NCBI RefSeq assembly: GCF_001020985.1
Contig: NZ_CP011542.1
Location: forward strand, 3,286,001-3,350,000
Length of the DNA stretch: 64,000 nt
Source: Corynebacterium mustelae
GTDB taxonomy: Bacteria > Actinomycetota > Actinomycetes > Mycobacteriales > Mycobacteriaceae
Direction of reading: 5' to 3'
The translations under genes were made by a program, and so were the position numbers. Position 1 is the stretch's first letter, and each line of letters opens with the position of its first letter. Below the pieces are notes generated by a model, which was not told the DNA's origin, did not search any database, and was given only the letters and a program-made list of their open reading frames with translations. Positions 1,387 to 64,000 of this stretch are shown piece by piece.

Positions 1387-3312
1387 TTATTTTTTCATAG
1401 TCTTCGCTTTATTGATCGCCGCGATTGCCCTGATTACGCCGATATGTGAAAACGCTTGCGGATAGTTTCCGGCTAGTCGGCCGTGCTCCGGGTCATATTC
1501 TTCGGCTAAAAACCCTAGATCCGTAGCATAACTTGCCAATTGATCCATTAATTTTTCGGCGTCTTCGATCCGTCCAGCGGCGGCATACTGTTCCACCAGC
1601 CAAAAATTACAGATAAGAAATGGGTACTCGTGCCCGCTCAAACCATCCATCGCCAGGTTTCCGGTACCAGTCGGATCGGTCCTGTATCGATAAATCAGAC
1701 CGTGGCTGTCACCATGAATATCTTTCAGGTTCTGTTCAATGGCGGTGACGGTTCGTTGCATGAGTAGGTCACTAGCGTCAATAAAACCGGTTTGCGGTAT
1801 TTGCAATAAAGATGCGTCGACGGAGCGAGGTTGTCCTTCATAGGTTTGGAGAAAAGTGCCGGTTTTCTCATCAAAACCACGTGAAATTATCTCTTCCCGA
1901 AGCTCAATCCGGCGTCGACGCCACATAGCAACATCAGCATCTTCCGCCAACTCCGGATACGTTTCCACTGCGGTGATACCGGCGTTGAATGCAGCCCACA
2001 TCATCACGCGGCCGTGGGTGAAATAGTGCAATTCGCCCCGCATTTCCCAAATACCGTGGTCGCGTCGTTCAAAGTTCGCATCACAATAATCTAAGAGCTT
2101 CTTTTGCAACCGCCACGAATGCGGGGTTTCCTCAATACCGTATTCCCGTAATTTGGCTAAAACCAACATCAATTCACCCACAACATCAGCTTGATATTGT
2201 TCGACCGCACCATTACCAATCCGTACTGGTAACGAGCGTTCATAGCCAGGAAGGTGCGCAAGGATTCGTTCATCCAAATTGGTTTCACCACGCACGCCAT
2301 ACATGATCCGGAGCTTATCGACGTCCTCGCCGATAACCGCACACAACCAGTCCCGCCAGCGCCGCGCATACCCGGTGGCGTCGACAAGCCCCATGGATTG
2401 GGCAATCAACAATGCCTCGATACTGAAGGCCGAGTCACGCAGCCAGCAATAACGATAATCCCAGTTTCGCTCTCCCCCAAAGTCTTCCGGTAAAGACGCG
2501 GTTGGGGCTGCTAGAACCGCGCCGTTAGCCAAGCATAACGCCTTCAACGCGGTTACTGACTGATTAAGCAAAATCTCCCATTTGCCTGCCATGCCAGAGG
2601 CTGTAGACGATGCTGAAACGTCGGTGGCCGCTTCGACGAAAGTCGCCGCAAGCTTTTTATTGTCCGATTCTGTAGCGGTTAAAACTAATTCCCACCTCTG
2701 CTCGTCACCGGAGCTAAGAGAGAATTCTTCATAGAAATCGCTGGCAATATCGGAAACTAGCGTCGGCAATCGTCCGAAAAACGTGGATTCCAAAATACCG
2801 TCTTCATTAAAAAATTCGTAGACATCAAGTTCATTTTCATGACGCTGCCAGGCAGGACACTGCAAGCCATAATTAATACGAGGCCGTAAATCGTGCTGGA
2901 CGGTAACGTCACCTTCGACACACACGAGTTCGCGGATGATGATACTTGCCCCTGTCTCCGCCACAGCCAAGGTATCGCGCAGCACTGCCACACCGGTTTC
3001 AGTAGTCCAGGTAGTACGCAATACCGGATAGGGAGAGTTGGTTTTCTCATACTCCCATTGGATAGCGGTTGGTTCACTTAAGCTAACGCGCCAGCATCCG
3101 TGGTTGCTTGTCCCCACCAATGCGGCGAAGATGGCTTCGCCGTCTACCTGTGGGCACAGCCAATCAATGCTGCCATACCGTGAGCACAATGCTACAGTGC
3201 GGTGATTGCTAAGCAGGCCGTAATCTTCGAGAGGGACACTTTCGCCTTGCTCGTAGTATCGGGCCACACCATCCAATACGGGATTCATGTATTCTTTTTT
3301 ACCTGAAAACAT
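1387..3312 (-). CDS. Glycoside hydrolase family 15 protein (trehalase/glucoamylase-like)
   Basis: 641-residue cytosolic GH15-type alpha-glucosidase. The N-terminal beta-sandwich begins with EDYGLLSNHRTVALCSRYGSI (residues about 28-48). The (alpha/alpha)6 barrel has the family signature GGERNWDYRYCWLRDSAFS near residue 280 and a late SGHEYPFLICNFWLVEQ segment that supplies a catalytic acidic residue. Actinobacterial members of this length include trehalases such as mycobacterial Rv2402, so trehalose hydrolysis is the best guess, with other alpha-glucans possible. No signal peptide is seen. ATG 3288 (MNPVLDG) is an equally good start; neither has a strong ribosome site. The gene sits alone between the DnaA-box cluster and dnaB, in the same direction as both neighbours. 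Confidence 0.85.
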   Translation of the reverse strand: MFSGKKEYMNPVLDGVARYYEQGESVPLEDYGLLSNHRTVALCSRYGSIDWLCPQVDGEAIFAALVGTSNHGCWRVSLSEPTAIQWEYEKTNSPYPVLRTTWTTETGVAVLRDTLAVAETGASIIIRELVCVEGDVTVQHDLRPRINYGLQCPAWQRHENELDVYEFFNEDGILESTFFGRLPTLVSDIASDFYEEFSLSSGDEQRWELVLTATESDNKKLAATFVEAATDVSASSTASGMAGKWEILLNQSVTALKALCLANGAVLAAPTASLPEDFGGERNWDYRYCWLRDSAFSIEALLIAQSMGLVDATGYARRWRDWLCAVIGEDVDKLRIMYGVRGETNLDERILAHLPGYERSLPVRIGNGAVEQYQADVVGELMLVLAKLREYGIEETPHSWRLQKKLLDYCDANFERRDHGIWEMRGELHYFTHGRVMMWAAFNAGITAVETYPELAEDADVAMWRRRRIELREEIISRGFDEKTGTFLQTYEGQPRSVDASLLQIPQTGFIDASDLLMQRTVTAIEQNLKDIHGDSHGLIYRYRTDPTGTGNLAMDGLSGHEYPFLICNFWLVEQYAAAGRIEDAEKLMDQLASYATDLGFLAEEYDPEHGRLAGNYPQAFSHIGVIRAIAAINKAKTMKK

Positions 3313-3465
3313 CGGACATAAATAGTTACTAAGGATTTTTCCCCAGACTCACTGAGACGAAAACATCTTTATCTGCTTTCACATGAGTTTCAACCCCCAG
3401 GCCGTCACCCATAATCACATTCTCTACCAGATTTTTCCGGCTTAGACAATTCTAAAATCCCCGAG

Positions 3466-3722
3466 TTATCCACAGGCTCTGTGGATAAACCTGTTTATGG
3501 ATGGTGGAATAATGTGAATGCCTGTGGATAACTTTCATCACATCATCAAAAATACCCCAGGTTTATCCCAAAAATGCAGGTTAATCCTAATTTCACCCCT
3601 GTGGATAACTTTCACCATATCCGTGGAAAACACCCACAAGCAGTGCATTTGACAACACGACTTTTGGCAGTTTTTCGATGCTGAAAATCAGAAAGCGTGA
3701 GTTTTCCCACAAGTTATCCACA
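3466..3722. promoter_or_regulatory. Cluster of five perfect DnaA boxes
   Basis: Five exact TTATCCACA boxes lie in 257 bp: plus orientation at 3466-3474 and 3714-3722; minus orientation (TGTGGATAA) at 3480-3488, 3523-3531 and 3600-3608. Related TTATCCCAA sequences occur at 3563-3571 (plus) and 3729-3737 (minus). The boxes fill a 636-bp non-coding stretch between the GH15 gene and rplI. No dnaA or dnaN is in the window, so this is either a DnaA-titration/DnaA-regulated site or an origin-like element. The sequence matches are direct; the role is inferred. Confidence 0.85.
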
Positions 3723-3841
3723 GGAGGCTTGGGATAAAACACAATCGGGGGTGAATCGGTTCAGTTAAACACCATCCAGTAACCAAAAATATTGCACATC
3801 CCTACCGATAAAACTGAAAAGTATATTAACGTTAGAAATAC

Positions 3842-3892
3842 GAACGGACCGGCCACGGCCTGGAAACTAAGGCCAGGCCGGCCGGTCCGTTC
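3842..3892. terminator. Strong hairpin behind rplI
   Basis: A 13-bp perfect outer stem (GAACGGACCGGCC, 3842-3854, pairing with 3880-3892) encloses an inner stem GGCCTGG/CCAGGCC. It lies 56 bp beyond the rplI stop and probably ends the rpsF-ssb-rplI transcript. A smaller hairpin, GGTCCC/GGGACC, sits at 3910-3928. The uridine tract is weak. Confidence 0.75.
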
Positions 3893-9546: not shown

Positions 9547-10512
9547 TTGCCTATGCCCTCAAAAACCCAGTCCACGCCACGGCACCACATGCAACAATTT
9601 CGCATCTTGGTTGCGTGGCAACCCCAGTCCAGCGGCGACGAAGCGCTTGAAGTCGCCGCTTGGGTAGCTCGCACCGCAGATGTCACCATCCAATGTGTCA
9701 CCACATTCTTGCGTCCTTGGCCGTCACCGGCAATGAGCAAACTTGGCTCCACGCATAAAAAATGGTTCAAGAAGGAAACCGAACGTTACACCAAAGCCGT
9801 CGCTGCGAAGCTTAACGACGTCGGCATTGACCGCACCCAATGGGCCGAGCCAGTCGCTGTCATCGCTGATGGCACCTCTGAATCCGTCATGCTCACCCAA
9901 GCCGCCCACGACTTCGGTGCGGACATGATCCTGCTTGGCTCCAAAGCCGCCGCCCCTAAAGGCCGGTTTTTACCTGGCACCACAGCCGACTCCATGCTGC
10001 ACTCTTCGCCTCGGCCACTCCTCCTAGCACCCCGCCTACCCAAACTAGCCAAACGCGGCATCACCCGCGTTAATGTAGCTTTCATTGGCCAAGACACGGA
10101 CGAATCTGCAACAACCACAGCCGCCGAACTCGCCGCCGCATGGGGCGTTCCACTGAGGATTCTCGCCCTCTCACCAGATGGATTCGGGGCACCTCCCGTT
10201 TCAGAATCAATCAAACCATCAATAGACTTAAGTCACGAATGGCGCGAAAACGCATTGGCAATCTTAGACCGACTCCGCAGCAGCGCTCACGCTGCATTTC
10301 CCCACATTGATATCACCTGCGACATAGGCTCCGGCAACGGGTGGCACGGCGCTCTTGACGTACTCAAATGGAAAAAAGGCGACCTACTCTGCTTCGGCTC
10401 CTCCCCCCTCGGTGCCTTTGAACGGGTCTTCATTGGCTCCCAAACTTCCGAAATCCTCCCGCACGTCCAAGTGCCAGTCCTCATGATCCCCACCCGAGGA
10501 AAGGAACAATAA
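9547..10512 (+). CDS. Tandem universal stress protein (UspA family)
   Basis: 321 residues with two Usp domains. Domain 1 starts at FRILVAWQPQSSGDEALEVAAWVA and ends in LGSKAAAPKGRFLPGTTADSMLHSSPRPLLLAPR, which resembles the G-2x-G-9x-G(S/T) nucleotide-binding pattern. Domain 2 starts at ITRVNVAFIGQDTDESATTTAAELA and ends in FGSSPLGAFERVFIGSQTSEILPHVQVPVLMIPT. ATG 9589 (MQQFRILVAW) is a plausible alternative start. The stop overlaps the next start (TAATG), so it is translationally coupled to the SDR gene. Exact role unknown; general stress function is inferred from the family. Confidence 0.88.
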   Translation: MPMPSKTQSTPRHHMQQFRILVAWQPQSSGDEALEVAAWVARTADVTIQCVTTFLRPWPSPAMSKLGSTHKKWFKKETERYTKAVAAKLNDVGIDRTQWAEPVAVIADGTSESVMLTQAAHDFGADMILLGSKAAAPKGRFLPGTTADSMLHSSPRPLLLAPRLPKLAKRGITRVNVAFIGQDTDESATTTAAELAAAWGVPLRILALSPDGFGAPPVSESIKPSIDLSHEWRENALAILDRLRSSAHAAFPHIDITCDIGSGNGWHGALDVLKWKKGDLLCFGSSPLGAFERVFIGSQTSEILPHVQVPVLMIPTRGKEQ

Positions 10513-11168
10513 TGCCCACCGCAGTCATCACTGGCGCCAGCCAAGGCGTAGGCCTCGCCACCACCCGCACCCTTTTAGACGCTGGATACACCGTCTACGC
10601 GCAGTACCGTAGCCAACCCGCCAAACTAAACCACCCCAATCTGCACTGGTGGCACGCCGATTTCGCAAACCCAATAACGGTACCGGATCAGGTGACGTCG
10701 CAAAGCATCAACGCACTGATCCACTGCGCCGGTGTCGCGCAACTTGGCAGCACCCACGACCAGCCCCGGCGCGCCTGGGAACACCACATGGCAATCAATC
10801 TCCACGCCCCGGTCGAACTCACCCAACAGCTACTACCGCAACTTATACGCACCTTAGGGCACGTTATCTACATCAATTCCGGAGCCGGGCACCACACCCA
10901 CCCCATGTGGGGCGCATATTCAGCCAGTAAGCACGCCGCCCGCGCCTGGTGCGAGGCACTCCGACAGGAAGCTCCTGAGATTCGGGTCACTAGCATTTAC
11001 CCCGGCCGGATAGCCACCGAAATGCAACGCGCGATCCGGGCCCAGGAAAATCAAGACTACAATCCCTGCGAGTACATCTCGGCTGATACCATCGCTGGCA
11101 CCATACTCAACGTCTTAAATACACCGACTGATGCCCACATCCCCGACCTCATAATCCGACCAAGGTAA
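10512..11168 (+). CDS. Short-chain dehydrogenase/reductase (SDR)
   Basis: 218 residues, slightly short for a classical SDR. The NAD(P)-binding motif is TGASQGVGLATTRTLL (residues about 6-21), the NxxG-like element is ALIHCAG, and the catalytic residues are Ser in INSGAGHH and YxxxK in YSASKHA. Substrate unknown. It overlaps the Usp gene by 1 nt, and the next gene starts 3 nt after its stop, so three genes (Usp, SDR, membrane protein) form a tight operon. Confidence 0.88.
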   Translation: MPTAVITGASQGVGLATTRTLLDAGYTVYAQYRSQPAKLNHPNLHWWHADFANPITVPDQVTSQSINALIHCAGVAQLGSTHDQPRRAWEHHMAINLHAPVELTQQLLPQLIRTLGHVIYINSGAGHHTHPMWGAYSASKHAARAWCEALRQEAPEIRVTSIYPGRIATEMQRAIRAQENQDYNPCEYISADTIAGTILNVLNTPTDAHIPDLIIRPR

Positions 11169-11171: not shown

Positions 11172-11633
11172 ATGGAACATCCCGAAAACGACCTCAGCTC
11201 CGACGCCGACCAGTCCAATCGGTTCCGTCCACAACCCACCACCTTTGATGAACTGGCCGACACCCCAGACCCGCTTAAAGAAGCTGCTCTTAATAAGAAA
11301 TCAACAAAGCAAGCGATCGCCTGGGCACTACTAACCCCAGTTATCACCGGAATCGTCGCCTACATTCTCGCCTGGGTCGCCCGCATTCAAGGCGGCTCGC
11401 TTTGCGACGACGGGCACGCCACATGGATTTGCTCCCGGCAAGCGGAAATCTGGTGGCCAGCCGCAACCAGCATGGTCCCCATCATCGCCACCATCGGGTG
11501 CGGCGTAATCATGTACCGCAAATACCTCAACTACACTCGCTGGCGGCCATGGATGGGCACATTCTGGTTCCTCGTGCCGTTTGCAATGCTGTGGATGGTC
11601 ACCGTGTTTCAGATGAGCATTGTGGGGCACTAA
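11172..11633 (+). CDS. Conserved corynebacterial membrane protein, unknown
   Basis: 153 residues. An acidic cytoplasmic N terminus of about 45 residues (FDELADTPDPLKEAALNKKS) is followed by three predicted membrane helices, about residues 48-70, 95-114 and 127-148. Two cysteines (CDDG, WICSR) lie in the first external loop and could form a disulfide. It is the last gene of the Usp-SDR unit, 3 nt after the SDR stop. No function is assigned. Confidence 0.75.
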   Translation: MEHPENDLSSDADQSNRFRPQPTTFDELADTPDPLKEAALNKKSTKQAIAWALLTPVITGIVAYILAWVARIQGGSLCDDGHATWICSRQAEIWWPAATSMVPIIATIGCGVIMYRKYLNYTRWRPWMGTFWFLVPFAMLWMVTVFQMSIVGH

Positions 11634-14059: not shown

Positions 14060-14072
14060 GGCGTCGAAAAGC
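14060..14072 (+). repeat. Copy of the GGCGTCGAMAAGC motif (A variant)
   Basis: Exact GGCGTCGAAAAGC in the non-coding region between the KAP gene and mhpC. It is one of ten exact copies in the window. Confidence 0.7.
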
Positions 14073-14249: not shown

Positions 14250-15119
14250 ATGTCTGATAAGCAATACACGAGTGTCTGGGATGATCTGGCTGAGGTTGAG
14301 TTCAGCCAAGGATATATAGAGGCAGGGGGATACCGGACTCGTTATCTTCATGCAGGTACTCCTGACAAGCCGACGCTATTTATGCTTCATGGAATCACCG
14401 GACATGCGGAGGCTTATGCCCGCAACTTGGCTGCGCATGCTGAACATTTCAATGTGTATGCTATTGATTTCATCGGGCATGGTTACTCCACCAAACCAGA
14501 GCACCCCCTGGAGATTAAGCACTATGTTGGCCAAGTGTTGGCGATCATGGATGAGCTTGGGGTTGAGAAGGCGTATTTCTCCGGCGAATCCCTTGGCGGT
14601 TGGACTACCGCACGATTGGCTCAGCTTTATCCCGAGCGGGTGGAACGCATTGTGCTTAACACCATGGGCGGCACGATGGCTAACCCACAGGTGATGGAGC
14701 GGTTGTACACCTTATCTATGGAGGCGGCGAAGGATCCTTCCTGGGAGCGGGTGAAAGCCCGGCTGGAGTGGCTTATGGCGGATCCGACAATGGTCACCCC
14801 GGATCTTATCCGCACCCGACAGCGGATTTTTGAACAACCTGATTGGCCGATGGCGTGTGAGATGAATATGGCGTTGCAGAACCTTGAGATCCGCAAGCGT
14901 AATATGCTTTCCGACGACGACCTGCGCGCAATCCAAGCGCCAGCGTTAGTGCTGTGGACAACTAAGGATCCATCTGGTCCGGTAGATGAGGGTCGCCGTA
15001 TTTCAGAATTGATACCAAACGGGCAGTTGGCGGTCATGGAGAATTGTGGTCACTGGCCGCAGTATGAGGACACCGAGACCTTTAATAAGATTCACCTCGA
15101 TTTCTTGCTTAACCGGTAA
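14250..15119 (+). CDS. mhpC: Meta-cleavage product hydrolase (MhpC-like alpha/beta hydrolase)
   Basis: 289 residues. Hydrolyses the C-C bond of the ring-fission product (2-hydroxy-6-oxonona-2,4-dienedioate in the phenylpropionate pathway), giving 2-hydroxypenta-2,4-dienoate and succinate. The alpha/beta-hydrolase fold shows the oxyanion HG motif (LFMLHGITG), the nucleophile Ser114 in GESLGGW, an acid in LWTTKDPSGP and His in ENCGHWPQYED. The start is set by GGAGGAAA right before ATG. First gene of a five-gene operon whose next member is an MhpB-type dioxygenase, which supports this substrate over biphenyl or steroid analogues. Confidence 0.9.
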   Translation: MSDKQYTSVWDDLAEVEFSQGYIEAGGYRTRYLHAGTPDKPTLFMLHGITGHAEAYARNLAAHAEHFNVYAIDFIGHGYSTKPEHPLEIKHYVGQVLAIMDELGVEKAYFSGESLGGWTTARLAQLYPERVERIVLNTMGGTMANPQVMERLYTLSMEAAKDPSWERVKARLEWLMADPTMVTPDLIRTRQRIFEQPDWPMACEMNMALQNLEIRKRNMLSDDDLRAIQAPALVLWTTKDPSGPVDEGRRISELIPNGQLAVMENCGHWPQYEDTETFNKIHLDFLLNR

Positions 15120-16270: not shown

Positions 16271-17053
16271 ATGAGTAAAAACGCTGTTTACCACACGATT
16301 GCCGACCAGCTTAAAGGTGCATATGCAACTAGACAGCCAGTAGAACCGCCCCGATTGCTTGTCGACGATTTAGATGTTGCAGGTGCTTACCGTATTCAGC
16401 AATTGCAGGAAGAAGCTTTTGTCGCAGAAGGCCACCGGGTGATTGGCCGCAAAATTGGTTTAACCTCGGTGGCAATGCAACAACAGTTAGGCGTCGATAG
16501 TCCTGACTTCGGGTTTTTCACCGAAAACATGCTCTATGAGGCAGATTCTGATATACCTGTATCGCGATTCATTTCCCCCAAAGTAGAACCAGAGCTGGGG
16601 TTTCGGTTGGGTTCCGACCTAAACCCAGATGCCACGATGGCCGAAGTTGAAGCCGCTATTGATTCCGTTTATCTTGCGGTTGAAATCATTGATTCGCGGG
16701 TACGTGATTGGGATATTCGTCTCGTAGATACCATCGCCGATAACGCCTCCTGTGGTGCCATTATTTTATCGACGGAGCCGGTCGACATTCCTGTTGCTGA
16801 GCTACCTGACGTTCGCGCAACGATGATAATCGACGACGTAGTCGCGGGTGAAGGCGCCGGGTCGGCGGTGATGGGTCATCCGGTCACTCCGATTGTGTGG
16901 TTGGCGCACACGCTTGCTGAGCAAGGAGTTCAGTTGAAAAAAGGCGACATTATCCTATCGGGCAGTTTCTGCGCTGCCGCCCCGGTTGTCCAAGGCCAAT
17001 CGTTATCCGTTGACTACGGTAGTTTCGGCCGCCTCAACGTTCGTTTTGTTTAA
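16271..17053 (+). CDS. mhpD: 2-keto-4-pentenoate hydratase
   Basis: 260 residues (E. coli MhpD 269), fumarylacetoacetase-like fold. Adds water to 2-hydroxypenta-2,4-dienoate to give 4-hydroxy-2-oxovalerate, using a divalent metal. Motifs: IGRKIGLTSVAMQQQLGVDSPDFGFF (about 57-82), PKVEPELGFRLG with metal-binding acidic residues (about 101-112), and LAVEIIDSRV (about 137). ATG 16271 lies downstream of AAGAAAG. Third gene of the mhp operon. Confidence 0.94.
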   Translation: MSKNAVYHTIADQLKGAYATRQPVEPPRLLVDDLDVAGAYRIQQLQEEAFVAEGHRVIGRKIGLTSVAMQQQLGVDSPDFGFFTENMLYEADSDIPVSRFISPKVEPELGFRLGSDLNPDATMAEVEAAIDSVYLAVEIIDSRVRDWDIRLVDTIADNASCGAIILSTEPVDIPVAELPDVRATMIIDDVVAGEGAGSAVMGHPVTPIVWLAHTLAEQGVQLKKGDIILSGSFCAAAPVVQGQSLSVDYGSFGRLNVRFV

Positions 17054-19092: not shown

Positions 19093-19897
19093 TTCGACGT
19101 TCTTCCTGCGCCCGTTGGAAGGTGATAGCTGCCTTTCCAGCTGCCTTGCAAGTTCGTCGTAAAGCTTGAACGTACATTTCTGGGTTGAAAGTAGCAGTTG
19201 GCCCGCTTACACTCATCGCCGCGATTGGCACGTTATTTCGACCGAAAATCGGCGCAGCAACGCAGGTTAACCCAGGCGTGATCTCCTCCCGATCGTAGGC
19301 AACCCCTTCTACCCGTACTCGCACCAATTCTTCACGCAATTTGTTTGGATCAACGATCGTGTTCTCGGTCCATGAGGTCAATCCTGCCTTAATTACAGAT
19401 TCTGTGCGCTCGTAGTCCCACGCTAGCATCGCTTTACCCACGCCAGTGCAATATGCGGGTGCGCTGCCGCCGATCCGTGACGGCGCTGGTATCCGTTTGA
19501 TCGAAAACAATTTATTAACGTATATCACTTGGGTACCTTGCAAAAAGGCCAAGTGAACAGTTTGCCTAGTCTGTTCAAAAAGCGCCGCTAGATAAGGTGT
19601 CAGCACCTCACCCACGACTTCTTTTTTCAACGAACCCGTCGTATGGGTTAGCTCGAAGCACAGGGGCCCAAGCCGATACACGTCACCGGCTCGCTCAATC
19701 GCCCCATTCGCAACCAAGGTGGCAAGGATACGATGACATGTCGTTTTCGACATCTGAGCCCGACGCGCCAGCTCGCTGACGCCAATCCCATTGGCGTCAT
19801 GATCGCTAAAACAACGCAACAGGCTAAAAGCTTTGTCTACAGCACCGCGATTGTCGATTGGTTTTTCTGCTGCTGGAACTTTTAGTTTGTCAGTCAT
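19079..19897 (-). CDS. IclR-family regulator of the mhp/hca genes
   Basis: 272 residues. N-terminal winged HTH (GVSELARRAQMSKTTCHRILATLVANGAIERAGDVYRLG, about residues 36-74), then the IclR effector domain with PAYCTGVGKAMLAW and GVAYDREEITPGLTCVAAPIFGRN. A frame continues upstream to 20005, but GGAGAGGAG lies 9 nt before ATG 19897 and this start gives the normal IclR length. It is divergent from the hca operon and convergent with the mhp operon, so it is the probable regulator of both. The effector is not visible, but an aromatic acid or pathway intermediate is expected. Confidence 0.9.
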   Translation of the reverse strand: MTDKLKVPAAEKPIDNRGAVDKAFSLLRCFSDHDANGIGVSELARRAQMSKTTCHRILATLVANGAIERAGDVYRLGPLCFELTHTTGSLKKEVVGEVLTPYLAALFEQTRQTVHLAFLQGTQVIYVNKLFSIKRIPAPSRIGGSAPAYCTGVGKAMLAWDYERTESVIKAGLTSWTENTIVDPNKLREELVRVRVEGVAYDREEITPGLTCVAAPIFGRNNVPIAAMSVSGPTATFNPEMYVQALRRTCKAAGKAAITFQRAQEERRKVGQ

Positions 19898-28638: not shown

Positions 28639-28699
28639 CATTGCTTTTCGACGCCTGATGCTGCAGACTACCCTACCCGGTCGGCGTCGAAAAGCAATG
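28639..28699. terminator. Inverted pair of the GGCGTCGAAAAGC motif between convergent genes
   Basis: CATTGCTTTTCGACGCC (28639-28655) and its exact reverse complement (28683-28699) form a 17-bp stem with a 27-nt loop. Each arm contains one copy of the recurrent 13-mer. The pair starts 7 bp after the transporter stop and covers the end of the convergent gene, so it can act as a bidirectional terminator. Confidence 0.75.
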
Positions 28700-29486: not shown

Positions 29487-29499
29487 GGCGTCGACAAGC
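29487..29499 (+). repeat. Copy of the GGCGTCGAMAAGC motif
   Basis: Exact GGCGTCGACAAGC in the 32-bp gap between the convergent genes ending at 29473 and 29506. Confidence 0.7.
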
Positions 29500-46648: not shown

Positions 46649-48013
46649 ATGCGCTTACTCACCAACCCACGCCACTTACCCACCTCGCCAAACCAACACG
46701 AAGCGATTAGCGTAAGTGATGTGACCTCACGTCGATTCGATTCCCACACCGGATTATCAACACCGGAACAATCCGACTCACCGCTGCGCAGGATCTTGGT
46801 GCTCCTTCGGGTAGGCCTACACGTGTCCTTCGCGTTTTTCCTCTGCCTTGGTGCCATCCAAACCCCCGCCGACAGAAAACAACCACTCTCTGCCCACTAC
46901 ACCCTCATCATGTTGGGGCTGGTCGGTGTGTTAGCCGCCGTCTATCTCGTGGGTACAACATGGGAGAAACGCGCAGTTGCCAATAATGGCAATCCTGCCT
47001 TTCGGGCCCAATCCACACTTGCATCGTGCTGGCTGATCCTGGTGACAGCGTTATGGGTAGCGTTGGTCGCAGTATCACCTTCGTTTGTATGGCTGCTATT
47101 TCCGCTGGCATTTATTTATCTACACGTCATTCCGCTGCCCATTAATCTCCTAGCCGTCGCGCTGGGCTGGGCTTTTGCCGCCTTTATCCCCATGTACATG
47201 GCACCGGAAACATGGACTCCCTCAGCCGCGGTGGGACCAGGTATCGGCTCCATCTTCGCCACCGTCGTGTACTTCACCTACCAAGCACTAGGCCGCGAAA
47301 TTGACCGCCAAACGCAACTATCCCAACAACTCATCGCCGCCCAGCAGGAACTCGCCGAAAAAGAACACCAAGCAGGTCGACTGGAGGAACGGGAGCGGCT
47401 GAGTAGAGAAATCCACGACACCGTCGCCCAAGGATTAAGCTCAATCCTGTTGCTTTCGCGGGCCGCCCAGAATGAGCTCATGCACGGCGACACCGACACC
47501 GCCCGCGAACAATTGCACACAATACATGAGCAGGCTGGGGCGTCGTTAAGCGAAGCACGCCGCTTCGTCCGCGACCTCGCCTCTCCAGATCTCAGCGACC
47601 CACTACCACAGGCATTGCAACGCGTTGTGGCACGCGCTAGCACCCGCGACACCGCACTAGGCATCGACCGGGATTACAGCCTGGAAGTGCTCGGTGACGA
47701 AACCCACCCAGTACCCGAACCCGTTTCCCGCGCAGTCATCCGCGTCGTTCAAGAAGCAATAAACAATATCCACAAACATTCAACCGCAACCAAAGCGGTG
47801 ATTACAGTAGGAATCTGGGAAGAAGAAATAAGCATCGACGTCATGGACAACGGCCACATCGATCACAGCCCAACCCCAGGCTTCGGCATCACCGGTCTGA
47901 AAAAACGCATAGCTGACTTGGGTGGTAATTTGACGGTAGAGTTTGGGCTAAACGACGGTGAAGCTGTGGCGCTGACGTGCCGCATCCCGCTAACAAGTAG
48001 GAGAGACGACTAA
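46649..48013 (+). CDS. chrS: Sensor histidine kinase (ChrS-like, NarL family)
   Basis: 454 residues. An N-terminal cytoplasmic part of about 45 residues is followed by about six membrane helices (residues about 48-210) with very short loops. A coiled coil (ALGREIDRQTQLSQQLIAAQQELAEKEHQAGRLEERERLS) leads to the HisKA_3 phospho-acceptor His in SREIHDTVAQGLSSILLLSR, then the ATPase domain with VVQEAINNIHKHSTA, DVMDNG and GFGITGLKKRI. A sensor buried in the membrane fits haem sensing as in ChrS. The start is uncertain, as no strong ribosome site precedes ATG 46649. Confidence 0.78.
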   Translation: MRLLTNPRHLPTSPNQHEAISVSDVTSRRFDSHTGLSTPEQSDSPLRRILVLLRVGLHVSFAFFLCLGAIQTPADRKQPLSAHYTLIMLGLVGVLAAVYLVGTTWEKRAVANNGNPAFRAQSTLASCWLILVTALWVALVAVSPSFVWLLFPLAFIYLHVIPLPINLLAVALGWAFAAFIPMYMAPETWTPSAAVGPGIGSIFATVVYFTYQALGREIDRQTQLSQQLIAAQQELAEKEHQAGRLEERERLSREIHDTVAQGLSSILLLSRAAQNELMHGDTDTAREQLHTIHEQAGASLSEARRFVRDLASPDLSDPLPQALQRVVARASTRDTALGIDRDYSLEVLGDETHPVPEPVSRAVIRVVQEAINNIHKHSTATKAVITVGIWEEEISIDVMDNGHIDHSPTPGFGITGLKKRIADLGGNLTVEFGLNDGEAVALTCRIPLTSRRDD

Positions 48014-48637
48014 ATGACTCCCATTCGCGTCATGCTTATCGACGACCACCCCGTCGTCCGCGCCGGGTTGCGCGCAATCTTAAATAGTTTTCCCGACATC
48101 ACCGTTGCTGCCGAGGCATCCAGTGGTAAGGACATCACCGCCGCCTCGCTTGTCGACGCCGCCATTGATGTCGTCGTCACCGATATTCAAATGCCCGACA
48201 TTGACGGCATCACCCTGACAAAAATTCTCGCCCAGGATAAAACCGCACCCCCGGTGCTCATTCTCACCACCTACGACACCGAAGCGGACATCGTCGCCGC
48301 AGTGGAAGCAGGGGCAATGGGGTACTTGCTCAAAGATGCCCCTGAGAACGTCTTACATGACGCCGTCATCGCCACAGCCAACCGGGAACGCACCCTTGCA
48401 CCTGGCGTGGCTACCGCATTAATGAACCGGATCTCCAAACCCCGAGAAGCGCTTTCAGCGCGGGAAATCGAAATCCTCCAGGAATTGGAATCGGGGGCAA
48501 GCAATCGACAACTAGCCGCCAAGTTGTTCATTTCTGAGGCAACAGTCAAAACCCACCTGGTGCACATCTACTCAAAACTCGGGGTGGATAACCGCACTGC
48601 CGCCATCACTGCCGCACGGCAACAACGGCTGATTTAA
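48014..48637 (+). CDS. chrA: Response regulator (ChrA-like, NarL/LuxR family)
   Basis: 207 residues. Receiver domain with acidic pocket DDHP (residues 10-13), phospho-acceptor Asp in VVVTDIQMPDIDG (near residue 57), switch Thr in ILTTYDT and Lys in YLLKDAPE. C-terminal LuxR-type HTH: LSAREIEILQELESGASNRQLAAKLFISEATVKTHLVHIYSKLGVDNRTAAI. It directly follows the kinase, which suggests a kinase-regulator pair controlling the divergent exporter. Confidence 0.85.
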   Translation: MTPIRVMLIDDHPVVRAGLRAILNSFPDITVAAEASSGKDITAASLVDAAIDVVVTDIQMPDIDGITLTKILAQDKTAPPVLILTTYDTEADIVAAVEAGAMGYLLKDAPENVLHDAVIATANRERTLAPGVATALMNRISKPREALSAREIEILQELESGASNRQLAAKLFISEATVKTHLVHIYSKLGVDNRTAAITAARQQRLI

Positions 48638-51501: not shown

Positions 51502-51504
51502 AAC

Positions 51505-52534: not shown

Positions 52535-52547
52535 GGCGTCGACAAGC
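52535..52547 (+). repeat. Copy of the GGCGTCGAMAAGC motif
   Basis: Exact GGCGTCGACAAGC in the 96-bp gap between the convergent bacteriocin operon and the unknown gene ending at 52566. Confidence 0.7.
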
Positions 52548-54544: not shown

Positions 54545-54557
54545 GCTTGTCGACGCC
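54545..54557 (-). repeat. Copy of the GGCGTCGAMAAGC motif
   Basis: Exact GCTTGTCGACGCC on the plus strand, 16 bp behind the fic stop (on the minus strand), between fic and the secreted-protein gene. Confidence 0.7.
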
Positions 54558-54572: not shown

Positions 54573-55802
54573 TTACACCAGTCCTAGATATTTCCGCCCA
54601 TGATCCGACAATTTAAACCGCTTCGGCTTCGTCGCAGTCGCTTCCACCACACCTTCTTGTTCCAACTCTTGTAGGTAACGGCGGGTTTGTTGCTCGCTTT
54701 TTTTAATCATCTCCGCAAGGTCTTTAAGGATCACGCCTCCTGCCGAACCGAATATCGATTCTTGCCCAAGAATAAACAATATATCGATAGTGTGCTTACG
54801 CATTTTGCTGGAATTATCTTGCTCAAGCTCCCGCAGCTTGTCTTCCAGCTGATCCATGCGTTCTTTATAATCGCGTAGTTGTTGGGTCACTTTGCGCTGG
54901 GCAGCCTCGATGAGTTCAAGCAGGTCAAGAACAAATGGCGTAACCTCGCCGTAGTTAAGCGACTCTTCAACTTCCATAAACGCTTTGTAATATTTGTTTT
55001 TCTGCTTATTAATAACCTGCGATAGCGATAACGCAGTGGGAATAGACAGCAGGTGCGTAAGGCTGAGCCCGAACATGAACCTACCGACCCGGCCATTGCC
55101 TTCATAAAACGGATGGATATACTCGAACATGAAATGTGAAACGATCGCCGCAATTAATTGAGGCACCTTTTGATCCGCCATAACGGTGAACATGACGTTC
55201 ACTGCGTCGATGATTGTCGATTCTGGGGTTAAGCCACTGTGAACTTTCTCGTTGCTTCCATCGAAAATGTGGACCGGTTCATTCCGAAAAAGCTCGCCAT
55301 CGAGCTGATCTTCGTCAGCTATTTCCCCGGCCAACAGGTCGTCGTAAAGCGCACGTAGCTCTGTTGCCGTTTCTGGCAGACGTAGTTTGCCATCGGCAAT
55401 CCCCAGATATAGCCGCGCCATTTCCAAAAACCGTCGGTTCTTGGGTGATGTGCTGCCCTTGATCGCAGCGATCGCCTCGCCAATCTCCTGCCTGGTTGAA
55501 CGTACTCCCTCAATATCGTTTGTGGCAACGATTTCGTCCATGATGAGGTTCTCCGCCCACGACCGCTGTGCGACCCGTGGCAGCCCACCCCATAGGGCAA
55601 AATTCTCTAATTCGTGGTGCACGATGCGCTCGATGCTGCGCGTCATGGTCGGTGTGACTAGACAGAACAACTGGTGCTCTCCGACTGTAAAATCCCAGTT
55701 GAGTGCGGATTCGGAATGAAACCGCGCGCGGTAAAGCGCCAGGGCCGTGTCCTTATCGGACGCGTGAAACTGCTGTTTAAGCGTACGATACTTTTTCGCC
55801 AC
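54573..55802 (-). CDS. Fic family protein with C-terminal winged helix
   Basis: 409 residues. Fic enzymes transfer AMP or another nucleotide part to target hydroxyls. The Fic core HPFYEGNGRVGRF (near residue 235) carries all HPFx(D/E)GNGRxxR residues. An inhibitory-helix match TNDIEG ([S/T]xxxE[G/N]) lies upstream, near residue 95, as in class II Fic proteins. A coiled-coil stretch (QLRDYKERMDQLEDKLRELEQDN) precedes a winged-helix domain (GGVILKDLAEMIKKSEQQTRRYLQELEQEGVVEATATKPKRFKLSDHG), which could bind the repeats just upstream. GTG 55802 is the start. It may act alone as a self-controlled toxin-like enzyme; this is inferred. Confidence 0.9.
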   Translation of the reverse strand: MAKKYRTLKQQFHASDKDTALALYRARFHSESALNWDFTVGEHQLFCLVTPTMTRSIERIVHHELENFALWGGLPRVAQRSWAENLIMDEIVATNDIEGVRSTRQEIGEAIAAIKGSTSPKNRRFLEMARLYLGIADGKLRLPETATELRALYDDLLAGEIADEDQLDGELFRNEPVHIFDGSNEKVHSGLTPESTIIDAVNVMFTVMADQKVPQLIAAIVSHFMFEYIHPFYEGNGRVGRFMFGLSLTHLLSIPTALSLSQVINKQKNKYYKAFMEVEESLNYGEVTPFVLDLLELIEAAQRKVTQQLRDYKERMDQLEDKLRELEQDNSSKMRKHTIDILFILGQESIFGSAGGVILKDLAEMIKKSEQQTRRYLQELEQEGVVEATATKPKRFKLSDHGRKYLGLV

Positions 55803-56021: not shown

Positions 56022-56663
56022 ATGAACATTGATATTTGGTCTGATTACGTATGCCCATTTTGCTGGGTAGGGAAGCGAAATTTGGAAATCGCATTGCGTG
56101 AATTTGAACATGCTGATGCGGTGACCATTACCTGGCACCCATTTGAGTTGGACCCACACGCGCCGACCGAGGTAACCGGCACGTTGGTGGAGAAAATAGC
56201 ACAAAAATACAACCTATCACTTGAGCAATCCTTGGCCACCCAAAAAGGACTGCAAGCGAAAGCCAAGGCAGTTGGATTGGATTTTAATTACGAAGAAGCC
56301 AAGGCCACCAATACGTTCGATGCACACCGGCTTAGTTTCTTGGCCAGTAAGTTTTCGCTTGCCGACGTCTTCGACGACGCAGCGAAAAAGGCATACTTCA
56401 CAGATGGGAAATCGCTTGCCCATCACGACACTTTGGTCGAACTTGCCACAAGTGTTGGATTACCTAAAGAAGAAGTCCTAAACGTACTAGCCTCGGATGC
56501 ATATTCCGATGAGGTTCGACAATCGGAAGAGACCGCCCACAGGTTAGGAGTGACCGGCGTTCCGTTTTACGTGTTTAACAATACAATCGCGGTTAGCGGC
56601 GCCCAGCCACCCGGGGTGTTTGTAGAAGCATTGCGGCAGGCTTGGGCGGCTGGGGAACCTTAA
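56022..56663 (+). CDS. DsbA-family oxidoreductase (FrnE-like)
   Basis: 213 residues, cytosolic thioredoxin-fold protein of the FrnE/2-hydroxychromene-2-carboxylate isomerase-like group. The active-site motif CPFC lies in DIWSDYVCPFCWVGKRNLE (residues 4-22). The inserted helical domain (NTFDAHRLSFLASKFSLADVFDDAAKKAYFTDGKSL) and the cis-Pro region TGVPFYVFNNTIAVSGAQPP are typical. No signal peptide. Likely a disulfide reductase/isomerase in stress or maturation. Confidence 0.9.
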   Translation: MNIDIWSDYVCPFCWVGKRNLEIALREFEHADAVTITWHPFELDPHAPTEVTGTLVEKIAQKYNLSLEQSLATQKGLQAKAKAVGLDFNYEEAKATNTFDAHRLSFLASKFSLADVFDDAAKKAYFTDGKSLAHHDTLVELATSVGLPKEEVLNVLASDAYSDEVRQSEETAHRLGVTGVPFYVFNNTIAVSGAQPPGVFVEALRQAWAAGEP

Positions 56664-57977: not shown

Positions 57978-57994
57978 AATGGCAACTACCCGCT

Positions 57995-59488
57995 TTACCG
58001 TTTCTGATACAGCGATTTCCGTTGGAACTTAGGGTCTGAAGTAACCAGAATTCCTAAATTCCGGAAAATTGTTTCATCAACGGAACCAAGAATGGTGGTG
58101 GTGTGCACGTCGCAGCCACGTAGCTGTTTTAGTTGGTCCAATGCACGTTTGGCTTCATCACTGGTTCCTGCGGAGACGGAAAGTGCGATCAGCACCTCAT
58201 CGGTGTGCAGCCTGGGGTTCCTACTTCCTAGATGCTGCGTTTTTAAGGTCTGGATCGGCTCGATGGAGGCGGGGGAGAGCAAATGAACGCTGTCATCAAT
58301 TCCAGCCAAATGCTTTAATGCGTTAAGCAGCATCGCTGCCGAACAGCCCAAAAGTTCAGATGTGCGTCCGGTAATGATGGTGCCATCGGCAAGCTCAATG
58401 GCGGAACCAGGTTCACCAGTTTCGATTTCCCGTTGCCTGGCAGGTGCAATCACCCGTCGCTTATCCGGAGTGATTCCGGCCTTGGCCATCACCACCGCCG
58501 CGCGGTCAGACTGGGTGGAATCGCAGCCATCCCGGGCCTCGTCGACAAGCGCCTTGAAATAACGTCGAATAATCTCTTGATTAGCTGCTTCCCGGCATAC
58601 ATCATCATCGATAATGCATAGTCCCGCCATGTTCACACCCATATCGGTGGGGGATTGGTACGGAGTGGTGCCAGTGAGCCGCTCTAACAACGTTTTCAGT
58701 AGTGGGAAGGCTTCAACATCGCGGTTGTAATTGACGGTGTGTTCGCCATGTGCGGTGAGGTGGAAATGGTCGATCACGTTGGCATCGTTAAGGTCGACGG
58801 TCGCCGCTTCATACGCCAAGTTCACCGGGTGTTCTAGCGGTAAATTCCACACCGGAAAAGTCTCAAATTTGGCATACCCAGCCTGCACCCCGCGTTTATG
58901 CTCGTGATAAACCTGGGATAAACACGTGGCTAGCTTTCCAGAACCAGGTCCCGGCGCGGTCACCACCACCAGATCACGGGTTGTCTCGGCATATTCGTTA
59001 AGACCTAATCCCTCCTCAGACACGATCAGATCCATGTTGGTGGGGTAACCAGGAATTACGTGATGCCGGGCAACTGTGAGCCCCAAACGTTCTAGCCGCT
59101 GTTTGAAGGCAGTGGCCAGTCGGTTGTCGTCCTCCATCTGAGTGAGCACAATGTGCTCCACCAGAAACCCCCGCGCCCGAAACACGTCGACGAGCCGCAA
59201 CACATCGTCCTCATAAGTAATGCCAAGGTCCGCGCGCATTTTTTGTCGCTCGAGATCCTTGGCATTGATACAGATGAGGATTTCTACTTCATCCCGGATT
59301 TGCTCCAACATGGCAATTTTGTTGTCCGGGGTGAATCCGGGGAGAACCCGGGAGGCGTGCATGTCGTCGAAAAGCTTGCCGCCCATTTCTAGATACAGTT
59401 TTCCACCGATCTCTTCGCGGCGGGTTTTGATGTGTCGAGACTGCATCTCGATGTACTTATCACGGTCAAAGCCAATCGTTTTTACCAT
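57995..59488 (-). CDS. DUF1846 (UPF0371) family protein
   Basis: 497 residues, the usual length of this family of unknown function. Recognisable parts: [47 protein letters not shown] (residues 5-51), [48 protein letters not shown] (a P-loop-like segment) and [14 protein letters not shown]. Starts at ATG 59488. It has a GTCGACAAGC copy at 58541-58550. Confidence 0.93.
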
Positions 59489-61236: not shown

Positions 61237-62481
61237 TTAAGCGGGATCAATTTCCCCACCGGAGATAGCCACAGCGAGGCCAAGATCGTCAGCGTCGTCA
61301 AGCTCATTGCGCACGATATTGCCCTTGGCAAACTTATCCACAACCAGTGCAATTGCGCCGTCGCCGGTGACGTTGCAGGCGGTGCCGAAGGAGTCGATCG
61401 CAATATAAGCAGCGATCATGAGCGCCACTTGGTCGTCGGTGAAGCCCAGATTAGCGGAAAGCAAACCCACGGCAGCCATGATCGCACCACCTGGAACGCC
61501 AGGGGCGGCAACCATCGTTACACCTAGCATGAGAATAAAACCAAGCGCTGTGGGTAGTGGCAGCGCCATGCCATCCATAAACATAATGGCAGAGGCAAAC
61601 AGCGTGATCTTCATCATCGAACCGGAAAGGTGAATCGTGGCGCAGAGTGGAATGACGAAAACAGCAACGGATTGCGAAACACCGTTCTTGCGGGCCGATT
61701 CGTAGGTGACCGGGATTGTTGCTGCGGATGAGGATGTGCCCAGAGCCGTGAAATAGGCGGGCATCATGTTCTTCAGCGATTTCAGTGGGTTACAGCCCGT
61801 GATGAGCCCAGCGAGCAGGTATTGCAGCAGCAAAAGCGCGAATGAGCCGATAATCGCAAGAAGTAGAACTTTGGCGAATGCAGAAAGCACGTTGGTTAGA
61901 TTGCCGTTCATGCCCAGCGATAAGAAAAGACCAAAAATGTAAATCGGAAGTAGCGGGACGATGAATTTAACGATCACTTTCATTACTACCCGGCGTAGAT
62001 CCGCAACACCGCCATACAAGGTGTCAGATTTAACGGTGGTCATCGCCACGCCAACCACGAAAGCCAGCACCAACGCGGTCATAACCGGCATGGGGGCGGG
62101 CATATCGACCGAAATATAAGGCGACAGTTCGCCTTCGGAAATATCGGCAACGGAAATTTTTTCTTGGCCATTCAGAAGCCACGGATAAATAAGCACCGCC
62201 GCACCCCAGGACACGAGTCCCGCAAAAACAGCGGAACCGTAGGCTATACCTGTGGTGACAGCCAACCATTTACCAGCACCCCGACCCAAACCTGCGATGG
62301 CTGGGGTAATGAGGGCGAAGATGAGCACTGGTACGAAGAAACCCAGGAAGTTGCCGAATAAGCCGTTAAAGGTGACGAACACCCTGGCGAGCTGTTCGGG
62401 GAAGAAGCTGCAGATGATGCCGAGAATGATCGCAATGATGATCTTAAAAAGCAGCGACGATGTCAGCTAGCGTAGATTCAT
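61237..62481 (-). pseudogene. Dicarboxylate/amino acid:cation symporter (DAACS) with TAG at codon 5
   Basis: From ATG 62481 the frame reads M-N-L-R-TAG (62469-62467) and then stays open to 61237. After the stop it reads LTSSLLFKIIIAIILGIICSFFPEQLARVFVTFNGLFGNFLGFF, the normal first helix of a DAACS transporter. The rest is intact, with serine-rich TSSSAATIPVT and a late SFGTACNVTGDGAIALVVDKF. With or without codon 5 the length (about 409-414) is normal. The first standard in-frame start after the TAG is GTG 62382, which would remove helix 1. CTG 62466 directly follows the TAG and could serve in reinitiation. The gene is either a very recent loss or is rescued by reinitiation or suppression. 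Confidence 0.75.
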
Positions 62482-62714
62482 GAGTATTCCAAATCTATGT
62501 AGGGGACATAAGCACTAAGATAAGGATGCGACCAGTGCATCTCACTGCGCTTTCCTTGGTGGTTTACTGATAGTGGAATCGATAAACCTGTTAAACCCTA
62601 ATCTAGCGTGTTAGGAAGTTAATTCATATTTTTCCAACTGTTGCATATATCGCATAAAAGTAGTTGGGCAACAAGAATCGTCGTTTTGCCATACAGGTGG
62701 CTAGAGTAATCACC

Positions 62715-63230
62715 ATGACTGTTGTTGGAACGCTGCTTGCCATCTTCGCCGTCGCTTTGCTGATTATTGGAGCCTTGGCTTGGTCACGGCGCTTACCGGG
62801 CAATAAGTACATTGGGGTGCGTGTTACGGAAGTCCGTAAATCCAAGGAAAATTGGGATACTGCCCACCAGTTCGCTGGCCCGTTATGGGTAGCTGCCGGA
62901 GTGGCATTAGCTGTGGCTTCCGTACCGCCGTTTAGTGGCATTTCCTGGTTGTTAATCATCACGGTCATTGGGGTTATCGCGGCTGTGTATTTCGTCGGGC
63001 TGGGGGCGTCACTGGCAACGCGTGCCGCAGGGGTGATGGGGCGAGAAGACAGCCAAGAGGGTGGTTGTTGCGGCGGTACGCCTGAACAGACACCATCACC
63101 CAAGGAAGAAATGCCGTGCGAAATTACCGGCGACTGCGATCCCGGCGCATGCTCTGGTGCTGGTATCTGTGGTGGTCATGACATCGATATTGCCGCTTTA
63201 CGACGCGCAGCGAAGTCTGCGGACGGTTAA
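62715..63230 (+). CDS. SdpI-family membrane protein with Cys-rich tail
   Basis: 171 residues from ATG 62715. Three membrane helices (VVGTLLAIFAVALLIIGALAW; GPLWVAAGVALAVASV; ISWLLIITVIGVIAAVYFVGLG) with the SdpI signature GNKYIGVRVTEVRKSKENWDTAHQFAGPLWV between the first two. SdpI proteins confer immunity to the SdpC toxin in Bacillus; most relatives have no known role. The C-terminal tail holds seven Cys (GGCCGG, MPCEITGDCDPGACSGAGICGGHD), suggesting metal binding. The frame opens at 62664, but the signal-like helix and family N terminus fit ATG 62715. Confidence 0.8.
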   Translation: MTVVGTLLAIFAVALLIIGALAWSRRLPGNKYIGVRVTEVRKSKENWDTAHQFAGPLWVAAGVALAVASVPPFSGISWLLIITVIGVIAAVYFVGLGASLATRAAGVMGREDSQEGGCCGGTPEQTPSPKEEMPCEITGDCDPGACSGAGICGGHDIDIAALRRAAKSADG

Positions 63231-63318
63231 AATTTCTGGTTTTAGGTTCTCATGTCGGACTCATGTGTAAGAATCATTGTGAATTGATCCGTGGGATCGG
63301 CAAAGGAGCACTGCCGTT

Positions 63319-64000
63319 ATGGCTACAAAGGACTGGACTCCAGTTATTTCGCTTTTCGACGAACTAGGGTGGCGGAAAGCGAAAATGAAGCAGGTGGCGG
63401 CCCTGCCATTGGGCACCGCGGAGCAACACAAGCTAGCCAAACGGTTATTAAGTAGCGGGCAGCTTCCCACCAAAAATGGCGCGAACCCGTTGATGTTGTC
63501 GTTATTTGCCCTCCGGTTGGGGGTCGCACCGAAGCGGGTCGTGCAATTACTACGGCGGTATAATTCTCGGGGCGATCATCGATTAGTTGCACAGTGTGTG
63601 GCAGAACACGACGCAGAATACGCCACTGGTTTTATCGACGAAGCGGCACGATCAAATGGCATTGAGGGTTCCCGGTTGTATGTGGATAGTGATTTCAATG
63701 CCGCTAGTTTCTTCATTCTTACCCAGTACTTTCCTGAAATCCCGATCCCATCGCACGAAAACTATCTTTATACCTGGTCTTTTCTTGCCGCTCACGCGCT
63801 GAAGGTCCCCGAAGGTGGCGTCAGCAGTTCTAGGGATAGCAATCCCACACTCGATGAAATTGTGCCTACTCTTCGTGAGCATTTGCATGCTTGCTTTGCC
63901 GGTGGGCTCGATATGTGGGGCATGATCGGACACGTGGCGTTGCGGGCGTTACACCGAAACGAAGTGGAACGGGAAAAGGTAGTTGCCGCCGCTTTTTATT
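63319..64000 (+). CDS. Unknown protein, cut by the window end
   Basis: ATG 63319 follows AAAGGAGCA. The frame is open for 227 codons to the window end: MATKDWTPVISLFDELGWRK... It is soluble and probably helical, with Arg/Leu-rich segments such as MLSLFALRLGVAPKRVVQLLRRYNSRGDHRLVAQ and HLHACFAGGLDMWGMIGHVALRALHRNEVEREKVVAAAF. It somewhat resembles large actinobacterial repeat-helix proteins of unknown function, but I cannot name the family. Confidence 0.7.
   Translation, partial: MATKDWTPVISLFDELGWRKAKMKQVAALPLGTAEQHKLAKRLLSSGQLPTKNGANPLMLSLFALRLGVAPKRVVQLLRRYNSRGDHRLVAQCVAEHDAEYATGFIDEAARSNGIEGSRLYVDSDFNAASFFILTQYFPEIPIPSHENYLYTWSFLAAHALKVPEGGVSSSRDSNPTLDEIVPTLREHLHACFAGGLDMWGMIGHVALRALHRNEVEREKVVAAAFY

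Follow-up and report, generated by a model that had tools for sequence, protein, structure and literature searches.

Sequence word and genomic context in Corynebacterium mustelae

The DNA analyzed here, a stretch of 64,000 nucleotides hereafter called the window, covers positions 3,286,001-3,350,000 of the 3.39-Mb chromosome of Corynebacterium mustelae, whose 3.47-Mb genome also includes two smaller contigs (39.9 and 42.8 kb). Among its genes are those for a GH15 protein, an MFS transporter, a glycosyltransferase, a YjeF-type protein, a histidine kinase and response regulator, a Fic-domain and a DUF1846 protein, as well as a gene that we take to be leuS-like, and the subject of this study is a short word recurring within and between these genes. 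An earlier note on this DNA had described the word as a 13-mer, GGCGTCGAMAAGC, with ten exact copies (seven on the plus and three on the minus strand) and seven additional copies of a 10-mer core, all of which were present (Table 1). Genome-wide, the 13-mer was found 162 times in forward and 165 times in reverse orientation, far above the 0 + 4 occurrences of the control, for which the reversed pattern of the same word was counted in the same genome, and it is therefore not limited to the window. With up to two mismatches allowed, the window contained 35 matches to GGCGTCGAMAAGC compared to 3.4 (standard deviation 1.85, maximum 9) in 100 dinucleotide shuffles.

Statistics for C. mustelae are based on 464 kb comprising the window and 20 stretches of 20 kb, in which genes were predicted with a simple gene caller. 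In this sample CGTCGAAAAGC was present in 96 copies versus 0.62 expected from an order-3 Markov model, CGTCGACAAGC and CGTCGATAAGC were present in 44 and 25 copies, and one-base changes of CGTCGAAAAGC at any of the nine positions within CGTCG or AAGC occurred only 0-5 times each. The two bases of the spacer are free, except that the second disfavours G in this genome, and the leading GG of the 13-mer as well as an A following AAGC are weak preferences outside the fixed unit. Since the two middle bases are free and the nine others fixed, the real unit is the bipartite core CGTCG-N2-AAGC, of which the 13-mer is one flavour. As the motif itself the 13-mer was too long and too narrow and had to be rejected, its first two Gs being merely preferred and its middle two bases forming the spacer. 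The core CGTCGNNAAGC occurs 36 times in the window and 238 times in the 464-kb sample, and 1,682 copies in the whole genome compare to 87 of the reversed control.

For the spacer class [AT][ACT], 200 perfect copies were observed in 464 kb versus 2.3 expected, and sites deviating at one of the nine fixed positions numbered 83 versus 51.5 expected by chance; the excess of near-misses is therefore small and the consensus sharp. Perfect copies outnumber singly mismatched ones here as they do in the uptake signal sequences (USS) of Pasteurellaceae and the DNA uptake sequences (DUS) of Neisseriaceae, a peculiarity that Redfield et al. (2006) describe as common to both and unlike the binding sites of regulators (PMC1626085). 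Judged by its sequence pattern, distribution and conservation, CGTCG-N2-AAGC is probably a DNA-uptake-sequence system in an actinobacterium. The main rival is a binding site of an intracellular, chromosome-wide protein, such as a nucleoid organiser, a segregation factor or a self-marker for defence, where selection would retain about one site per 2 kb and plasmids and phages would simply be without sites. We consider this possible but doubtful, and the consensus, which is much sharper than that of typical intracellular regulators (PMC1626085), speaks against it.

With respect to gene context, 160 of 199 sites of this spacer class were located in genes (0.40 per kb), 28 in co-directional gaps (41.6 kb, 0.67 per kb), ten in convergent gaps (7.0 kb, 1.4 per kb) and one in a divergent gap (12.0 kb, 0.08 per kb). 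The preference for gene ends proposed earlier is real but, with 160 copies inside genes, modest. Similarly, the proposal that six of the ten exact 13-mers are non-coding held approximately: gene calls placed five of them between genes (14060, 28643, 29487, 52535 and 54545), and the sixth (28683) is at the end of an open reading frame (ORF) with a weak score and no Pfam match. Four of the five intergenic copies are within about 20 bases of a gene's 3' end, and 14060 follows one at a distance of 284 bases. The inverted pair 28643/28683, originally described as terminator-like, can form a hairpin but is atypical. Neighbour gaps of 120 bp or less (10 of 179) are as frequent as the 5.5% expected by chance, and hairpin-forming pairs of this kind are therefore not the rule; further hairpin-capable inverted pairs were found in three other loci. 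An element acting at the RNA level, as transcription terminator, RNA decay site or translation-linked motif, would fit these few pairs and the excess between convergent genes and behind stops, but is very improbable given the predominance of copies within genes, a sense:antisense ratio of 14:14 between co-directional genes, the chance frequency of close pairs and the absence of Rfam matches at gathering thresholds in the window.

Among the 160 coding copies, 84 are antisense in a single frame encoding Leu-(Phe/Val/Ile)-Asp, a pattern that could result from codon or dinucleotide usage or from mutational bias. Synonymous shuffling of 424 genes (40 shuffles keeping protein, codon use and next base) yielded 11.6 copies versus 159 observed, and codon use is therefore no explanation. 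This was the case for both orientations, with 4.8 (maximum 10) versus 58 real sense copies and 6.8 (maximum 13) versus 101 real antisense copies. Furthermore, L(F/V/I)D triplets with G on both flanks used CTT..GAC in 67 of 79 cases, intergenic DNA, where no codons are involved, is denser in the word than genes, plasmids and prophages of similar GC content are almost free of it (see below), and the GC content of the species carrying it ranges from 0.51 to 0.66 in the sampled stretches. A codon or dinucleotide artefact is refuted by the shuffle and plasmid tests, and we regard a by-product of this type as scarcely credible.

For replication polarity, base 1 was taken as the origin, and the change of sign in the GC skew of the sampled stretches, near 1.7 Mb, as the terminus. 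The right replichore contained 40 plus and 52 minus sites and the left 55 plus and 53 minus sites, corresponding to 93 leading and 107 lagging copies in 464 kb, and the absence of polarity bears out the earlier argument against FtsK-orienting polar sequences (KOPS) and Chi. A Chi-like recombination hotspot read by AdnAB/RecBCD-type enzymes would agree with a short, very abundant word within genes, and self-marking would also account for its absence from foreign DNA. However, a Chi signal is read on one strand and should be polar, while over the 171 carrier genomes described below 92,100 forward and 91,999 reverse copies (about 184,000 sites) were counted. The 5-2-4 structure is also longer than known Chi words, and this explanation is improbable.

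All 20 of the sampled 20-kb stretches contained the word, with 4-15 sites each and a variance/mean of 0.73. The coefficient of variation of the gaps was 0.85 versus 0.95 +- 0.06 in simulations, 3.75% of which were that low, indicating a distribution slightly more even than random. Presence in every stretch, this evenness, neutrality of orientation, near-confinement to the chromosome and rarity between divergent genes are what an intracellular protein such as a nucleoid organiser would lead one to expect; the lack of a macrodomain pattern in the sampled stretches is not.

Site conservation was compared with the genomes of three relatives, G197, G051 and G109. The nearest genome found, G197, has a leuS-like protein that is 94% identical and a DNA identity of 83.7% over 43 kb. 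In the conservation check suggested by the earlier note, here made between species, 19 of 21 C. mustelae sites were intact in G197 and 19 of 26 G197 sites were intact in C. mustelae, whereas the nine positions were kept in 23.7% of all windows of the same alignments. At about 72% identity, intact C. mustelae sites numbered 4 of 12 in G051 and 4 of 7 in G109, where one site differs at all 11 positions and is probably misaligned. No gaps were counted at the aligned sites of these three genomes (small numbers), so that relatives differ by substitution, and spacer bases vary while the core persists. A mobile repeat of the repetitive extragenic palindrome (REP) or miniature inverted-repeat transposable element (MITE) type was rejected, as there are only weak preferences beyond the 11 bases and no gaps at aligned sites.

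Carriers, dialects and foreign DNA

The word is common in the genus, as a check in other Corynebacterium genomes revealed: 171 of 242 genomes are carriers with 195-1,964 copies of CGTCGNNAAGC each. The remaining 71 genomes have fewer than 140 copies (mean 61.5 versus 64.2 for the reversed control); 65 of these are under twice their control and six at 2.2-4.3 times, the top ratio being that of G170 (115 versus 27). Counts below control were noted in 42 of the 71 low-count genomes, including G058 with 8 core words versus 61, for which avoidance or composition is a possible cause. The 13-mer count was rejected as carrier criterion because G184 has 21 13-mers yet a normal core density with another spacer, and the genus was therefore recounted with the core. 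Samples from 30 other genera of the family were near or below control, with 373 versus 143 in G338 as the highest ratio noticed. A contig scan listed 80 loci, seven of them from Corynebacterium, where the word was present in C. urinipleomorphum, MSK041 and two loci from metagenome-assembled genomes (MAGs), and absent from the sampled loci of C. variabile, C. urealyticum and one MAG. No other dominant word was found in eight non-carrier genomes at 40 kb each, which is a weak test.

In a tree of 30 leuS-like proteins, no fewer than three changes are needed to account for the pattern of carriers and non-carriers, and well supported branches force two of these. Rows in this tree were labelled by 13-mer count (at least 20 being rich), labels that match the core-count classes in 30 of 30 cases, and one row, G069, was mis-extracted in a wrong frame and has a very long branch. 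Among the seven rows labelled poor, G113 has a background count (51 versus 101), and the core counts of G178, G139, G114, G008, G103 and G231 range from 101 to 134, which is 1.8-3.6 times their control. The spacers form dialects: AA, AC and AT in C. mustelae, GC and GA in G184, mostly AC in G234 and mainly AT in C. urinipleomorphum. G184 and G234 are a fully supported sister pair with similar densities (0.49 and 0.54 per kb) and different spacers, and dialects can therefore change quickly. Such dialects, and losses in close relatives (at least two to three changes among the 30 genomes), would be odd for an essential organiser. G234 also has a second over-represented 11-mer, CCGTAGGCGTC, with 16 copies in 172 kb versus 0.3 expected.

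Foreign DNA is almost devoid of the word. The plasmid contigs of C. mustelae contained no site in 79,867 of 82,672 bases, whereas a density of 200 per 464 kb predicts about 34. On 19 readable small contigs from 14 other carriers, six core words were present in 337 kb versus about 112 expected from the density of each genome; this full-core count supersedes one with the narrower spacer class (3 sites versus about 79, a scaled estimate). Five integrase-family matches, four of them chromosomal, were obtained in C. mustelae, and 180 kb were taken beside two chromosomal integrases outside the highest-scoring pair, presumably XerC/XerD. Compared to a mean gap of about 2 kb, these regions revealed motif-free gaps at 233,819-267,205 (33.4 kb) and 899,400-944,854 (45.5 kb), and ten of ten scanned proteins from both regions matched phage families (integrases, terminases, portals, head and tail). 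The chromosome thus contains two prophages, at about 228.5-267 kb and 901-945 kb, with the motif absent over most of each, which speaks against the variant of the intracellular rival in which the word is a defence self-marker.

Competence genes and comparison with known uptake systems

The competence genes that the earlier note had proposed to look for, ComEC and ComEA, were found in the genus together with DprA and Flp-pilus genes, but equally so in non-carriers. ComEC was present in 241 and TadA in 239 (232 above cut-off) of the 242 genomes. Flp pilin, prepilin peptidase and DprA were sought in 80 genomes (40 carriers and 40 non-carriers) and found in 79 (missing from non-carrier G156), 79 (78 above cut-off; missing from non-carrier G128) and all 80, respectively. 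ComEA with SLBB and helix-hairpin-helix domains was recognized in nine of nine proteins scanned, from four carrier and five non-carrier loci; ten comEC loci were examined, and for the tenth, in G214, the gene caller reported none. C. mustelae itself has matches to ComEC, DprA, Flp, TadA and prepilin peptidase, while ComEA was matched in four other carriers. By tblastn, the Tad cluster was present in the four carriers and five non-carriers compared, with TadE not found in G012, TadC shortened in G128 and CpaE split in carrier G124. The TadF query had no match in nine loci including those of carriers and is therefore probably bad. An in-frame stop interrupts ComEC in G123, a low-count genome.

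Micrococcus luteus, likewise an actinobacterium, transforms with Flp pili and ComEA/ComEC (PMC6370729). It shares with Corynebacterium the ComEA, ComEC and Flp/Tad pilus genes but is presented without mention of an uptake sequence in the available text of that article (PMC6370729). Uptake sequences have been described for two proteobacterial families and the reason for their existence is debated (PMC7811141, PMC1939737; further literature on USS, DUS and pili in PMC12616744). The USS of Pasteurellaceae, AAGTGCGGT / ACAAGCGGT (PMC2346458), is unrelated in sequence to the Corynebacterium word, which moreover is bipartite with a free two-base spacer and resides in hosts with Flp/Tad pilus genes. 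The DUS of Neisseriaceae (ATGCCGTCTGAA and dialects) resembles the word in abundance, restriction to the core genome, absence from recently acquired genes (PMC2397512) and the existence of dialects (PMC3630211). On the other hand, its sequence is unrelated, and close pairs in Corynebacterium are no commoner than chance. Neisseria reads DUS with ComP (PMC3868556), for which no counterpart was identified among the Corynebacterium gene families tested.

HIP1 of cyanobacteria, a palindromic octamer of unknown role, is another very abundant chromosomal word; the Corynebacterium word differs from it in being non-palindromic and bipartite. ComP is a minor pilin, and Corynebacterium hosts have a mycomembrane. 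For the word studied here we lean slightly towards an independently evolved, genus-wide system of self-DNA recognition in Actinobacteria, with a bipartite word and species dialects, which would be read at the mycomembrane surface by a receptor linked to the Flp/Tad pilus or to ComEA. Under this model double-stranded DNA bearing the word would be bound at the cell surface by a receptor, which most likely would belong to the Flp/Tad pilus or be of ComEA type. ComEC would import the bound DNA, and DprA and RecA would mediate its recombination into the chromosome. Through this uptake bias and the resulting drive, imported alleles with an intact word would replace alleles without it, and copies would build up at tolerated sites of the core chromosome such as synonymous positions and gene ends. 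DNA entering otherwise than by homologous replacement, like plasmids and prophages, would remain word-free. Loss of the receptor or of competence would let a species drift to the background count, and a change in the receptor would shift the spacer preference and thereby create dialects.

Several observations weigh against uptake as the explanation. None of the six families (ComEC, TadA, Flp, prepilin peptidase, DprA and ComEA) separates carriers from non-carriers, and no receptor tracking the motif was found among them. This is the main gap: the receptor is either outside the tested proteins, or its specificity lies in sequence differences. That these genes are the same in both groups also suits an intracellular protein, as some other gene could set the difference. 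ComEC appeared as two separate matches in carriers G014, G091 and G229, and some carriers may therefore be without intact ComEC. The split or stopped ComEC of these genomes and G123 may be a broken gene or an assembly error. Exceptions to the exclusion from foreign DNA are the six core words on small contigs, three of them on one G031 contig, and three sites between the integrase and head genes of the first C. mustelae prophage, the edge of which is therefore uncertain. Conservation between the sisters G234 and G184 was moderate (8 of 12 and 5 of 7 versus a control of about 30%). Furthermore, no report of natural transformation or of such a motif in Corynebacterium was recognisable among the matches listed from open PubMed Central (titles and abstract starts); likewise, none of the papers listed for the motif's sequence strings was recognisable as dealing with a genomic motif of Corynebacterium.

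The likeness to uptake sequences that had been noticed earlier nevertheless extends to abundance, sharp consensus, non-polarity, the absence of gaps at aligned sites, near-absence from plasmids and prophages, and dialects. Sharp consensus, non-polarity, dialects, losses in close relatives and prophage exclusion favour uptake, short of proof. If uptake is indeed the cause, uptake sequences would have arisen a third time, besides Pasteurellaceae and Neisseriaceae, and for the first time in Gram-positive-type bacteria, and the genus would be naturally transformable now or have been so recently. Many corynebacteria would then be predicted to swap chromosomal DNA by transformation, offering a practical route for DNA into laboratory strains, and about 170 carrier and 70 non-carrier species with their dialects and close-relative losses would permit a comparative test of drive versus mate-recognition ideas. 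Should uptake not be the explanation, a cause would still be needed for the roughly 184,000 copies of this unexplained word in the 171 carrier genomes.

Sites in the window and other repeats

Table 1. Copies of CGTCG-N2-AAGC (core) and of the exact 13-mer in the 64-kb window, with their location and state in related genomes
Feature	Position	Strand	Location	Relatives
Core, spacer CA	1172..1182	-	inside gene 2-1207(-)	
Core, spacer AT	2313..2323	-	inside GH15 gene 1387-3312(-)	G197 retains core, spacer AC
Exact 13-mer	2377..2389	+	inside GH15 gene 1387-3312(-)	core 2379-2389 conserved in G197
Core, spacer AA	8404..8414	-	in gene	conserved in G197
Core, spacer AA	9354..9364	+	in gene	conserved in G197
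Core, spacer TT	9810..9820	-	in gene	conserved in G197
Core, spacer CA	10696..10706	+	in gene	
Core, spacer CA	11399..11409	-	in gene	
Exact 13-mer	14060..14072	+	intergenic	G197 retains core, spacer TA
Core, spacer GA	14906..14916	-	in gene	
Core, spacer AC	16357..16367	-	in gene	conserved in G197
Core, spacer TA	19155..19165	+	in gene	G197 spacer CA
Exact 13-mer	28643..28655	-	11 bases past stop of MFS transporter gene 27207-28631; inverted partner of 28683	
Exact 13-mer	28683..28695	+	end of weak ORF; inverted partner of 28643, hairpin-capable pair	
Exact 13-mer	29487..29499	+	between convergent genes, directly past stop codon	conserved in G197
Core, spacer TA	33894..33904	+	in glycosyltransferase gene 32581-34275(-)	conserved in G197
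Exact 13-mer	33946..33958	+	in glycosyltransferase gene 32581-34275(-)	core conserved in G197
Core, spacer CA	36663..36673	+	in gene	
Core, spacer AC	37459..37469	-	in YjeF-type gene 37133-38656	conserved in G197
Core, spacer AT	38149..38159	-	in YjeF-type gene 37133-38656	conserved in G197, G109 one mismatch
Core, spacer TC	40444..40454	+	in leuS-like gene 39977-42829(-)	intact in G197, G051, G109
Exact 13-mer	41804..41816	+	in leuS-like gene	core intact in G197 and G109, not G051
Core, spacer AT	41992..42002	+	in leuS-like gene	G197 one mismatch
Core, spacer GC	44714..44724	+	in gene	
Core, spacer TT	47541..47551	+	in histidine kinase gene	intact in G197 and G051
Core, spacer AT	48034..48044	-	in response regulator gene	intact in G197 and G051
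Exact 13-mer	48148..48160	-	in response regulator gene	core intact in G197, not G051
Exact 13-mer	52535..52547	+	intergenic, 18 bases past 3' end of gene 52566-53378(-)	
Exact 13-mer	54545..54557	-	directly behind stop of Fic-domain gene 54573-55802(-)	
Core, spacer TA	55340..55350	+	in Fic-domain gene 54573-55802(-)	
Core, spacer GC	56357..56367	-	in gene	
Core, spacer AC	58540..58550	+	in DUF1846 gene 57995-59488(-)	intact in G109, not G051
Core, spacer AA	59365..59375	+	in DUF1846 gene 57995-59488(-)	intact in G051 and G109
Core, spacer TC	61293..61303	+	in gene	one mismatch in G109, three in G051
Core, spacer TA	63195..63205	-	in gene	
Core, spacer AA	63351..63361	-	in gene	

Other repeated words were encountered in the same material. 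The palindrome TTCACGTGAA, presumably parS-like, was present in about 45 copies in 80 kb of G109 (C1:2700001-2780000) and about 8 copies in 80 kb of G051. Chromosomes usually have a handful of parS sites, and the count in G109 is far above this. The 16-base parS consensus, with up to two mismatches, had no match in the C. mustelae window. A word that we take to be DnaA-box-like, AGTTATCCACAGG, occurs four times in the window with both strands counted, and a CRISPR-like repeat, GAACATCCCCGCTCACGCGGGGAAAAC, reached about 23 copies in the sample of the C. mustelae chromosome by k-mer count. Finally, positions 49402-52469 of the window encode a Lactococcin-972-type bacteriocin ORF (Pfam E 8.7e-08) preceded by a 699-amino-acid protein with a weak, sub-threshold membrane-protein match and by a 215-amino-acid ORF, and are perhaps a bacteriocin locus.

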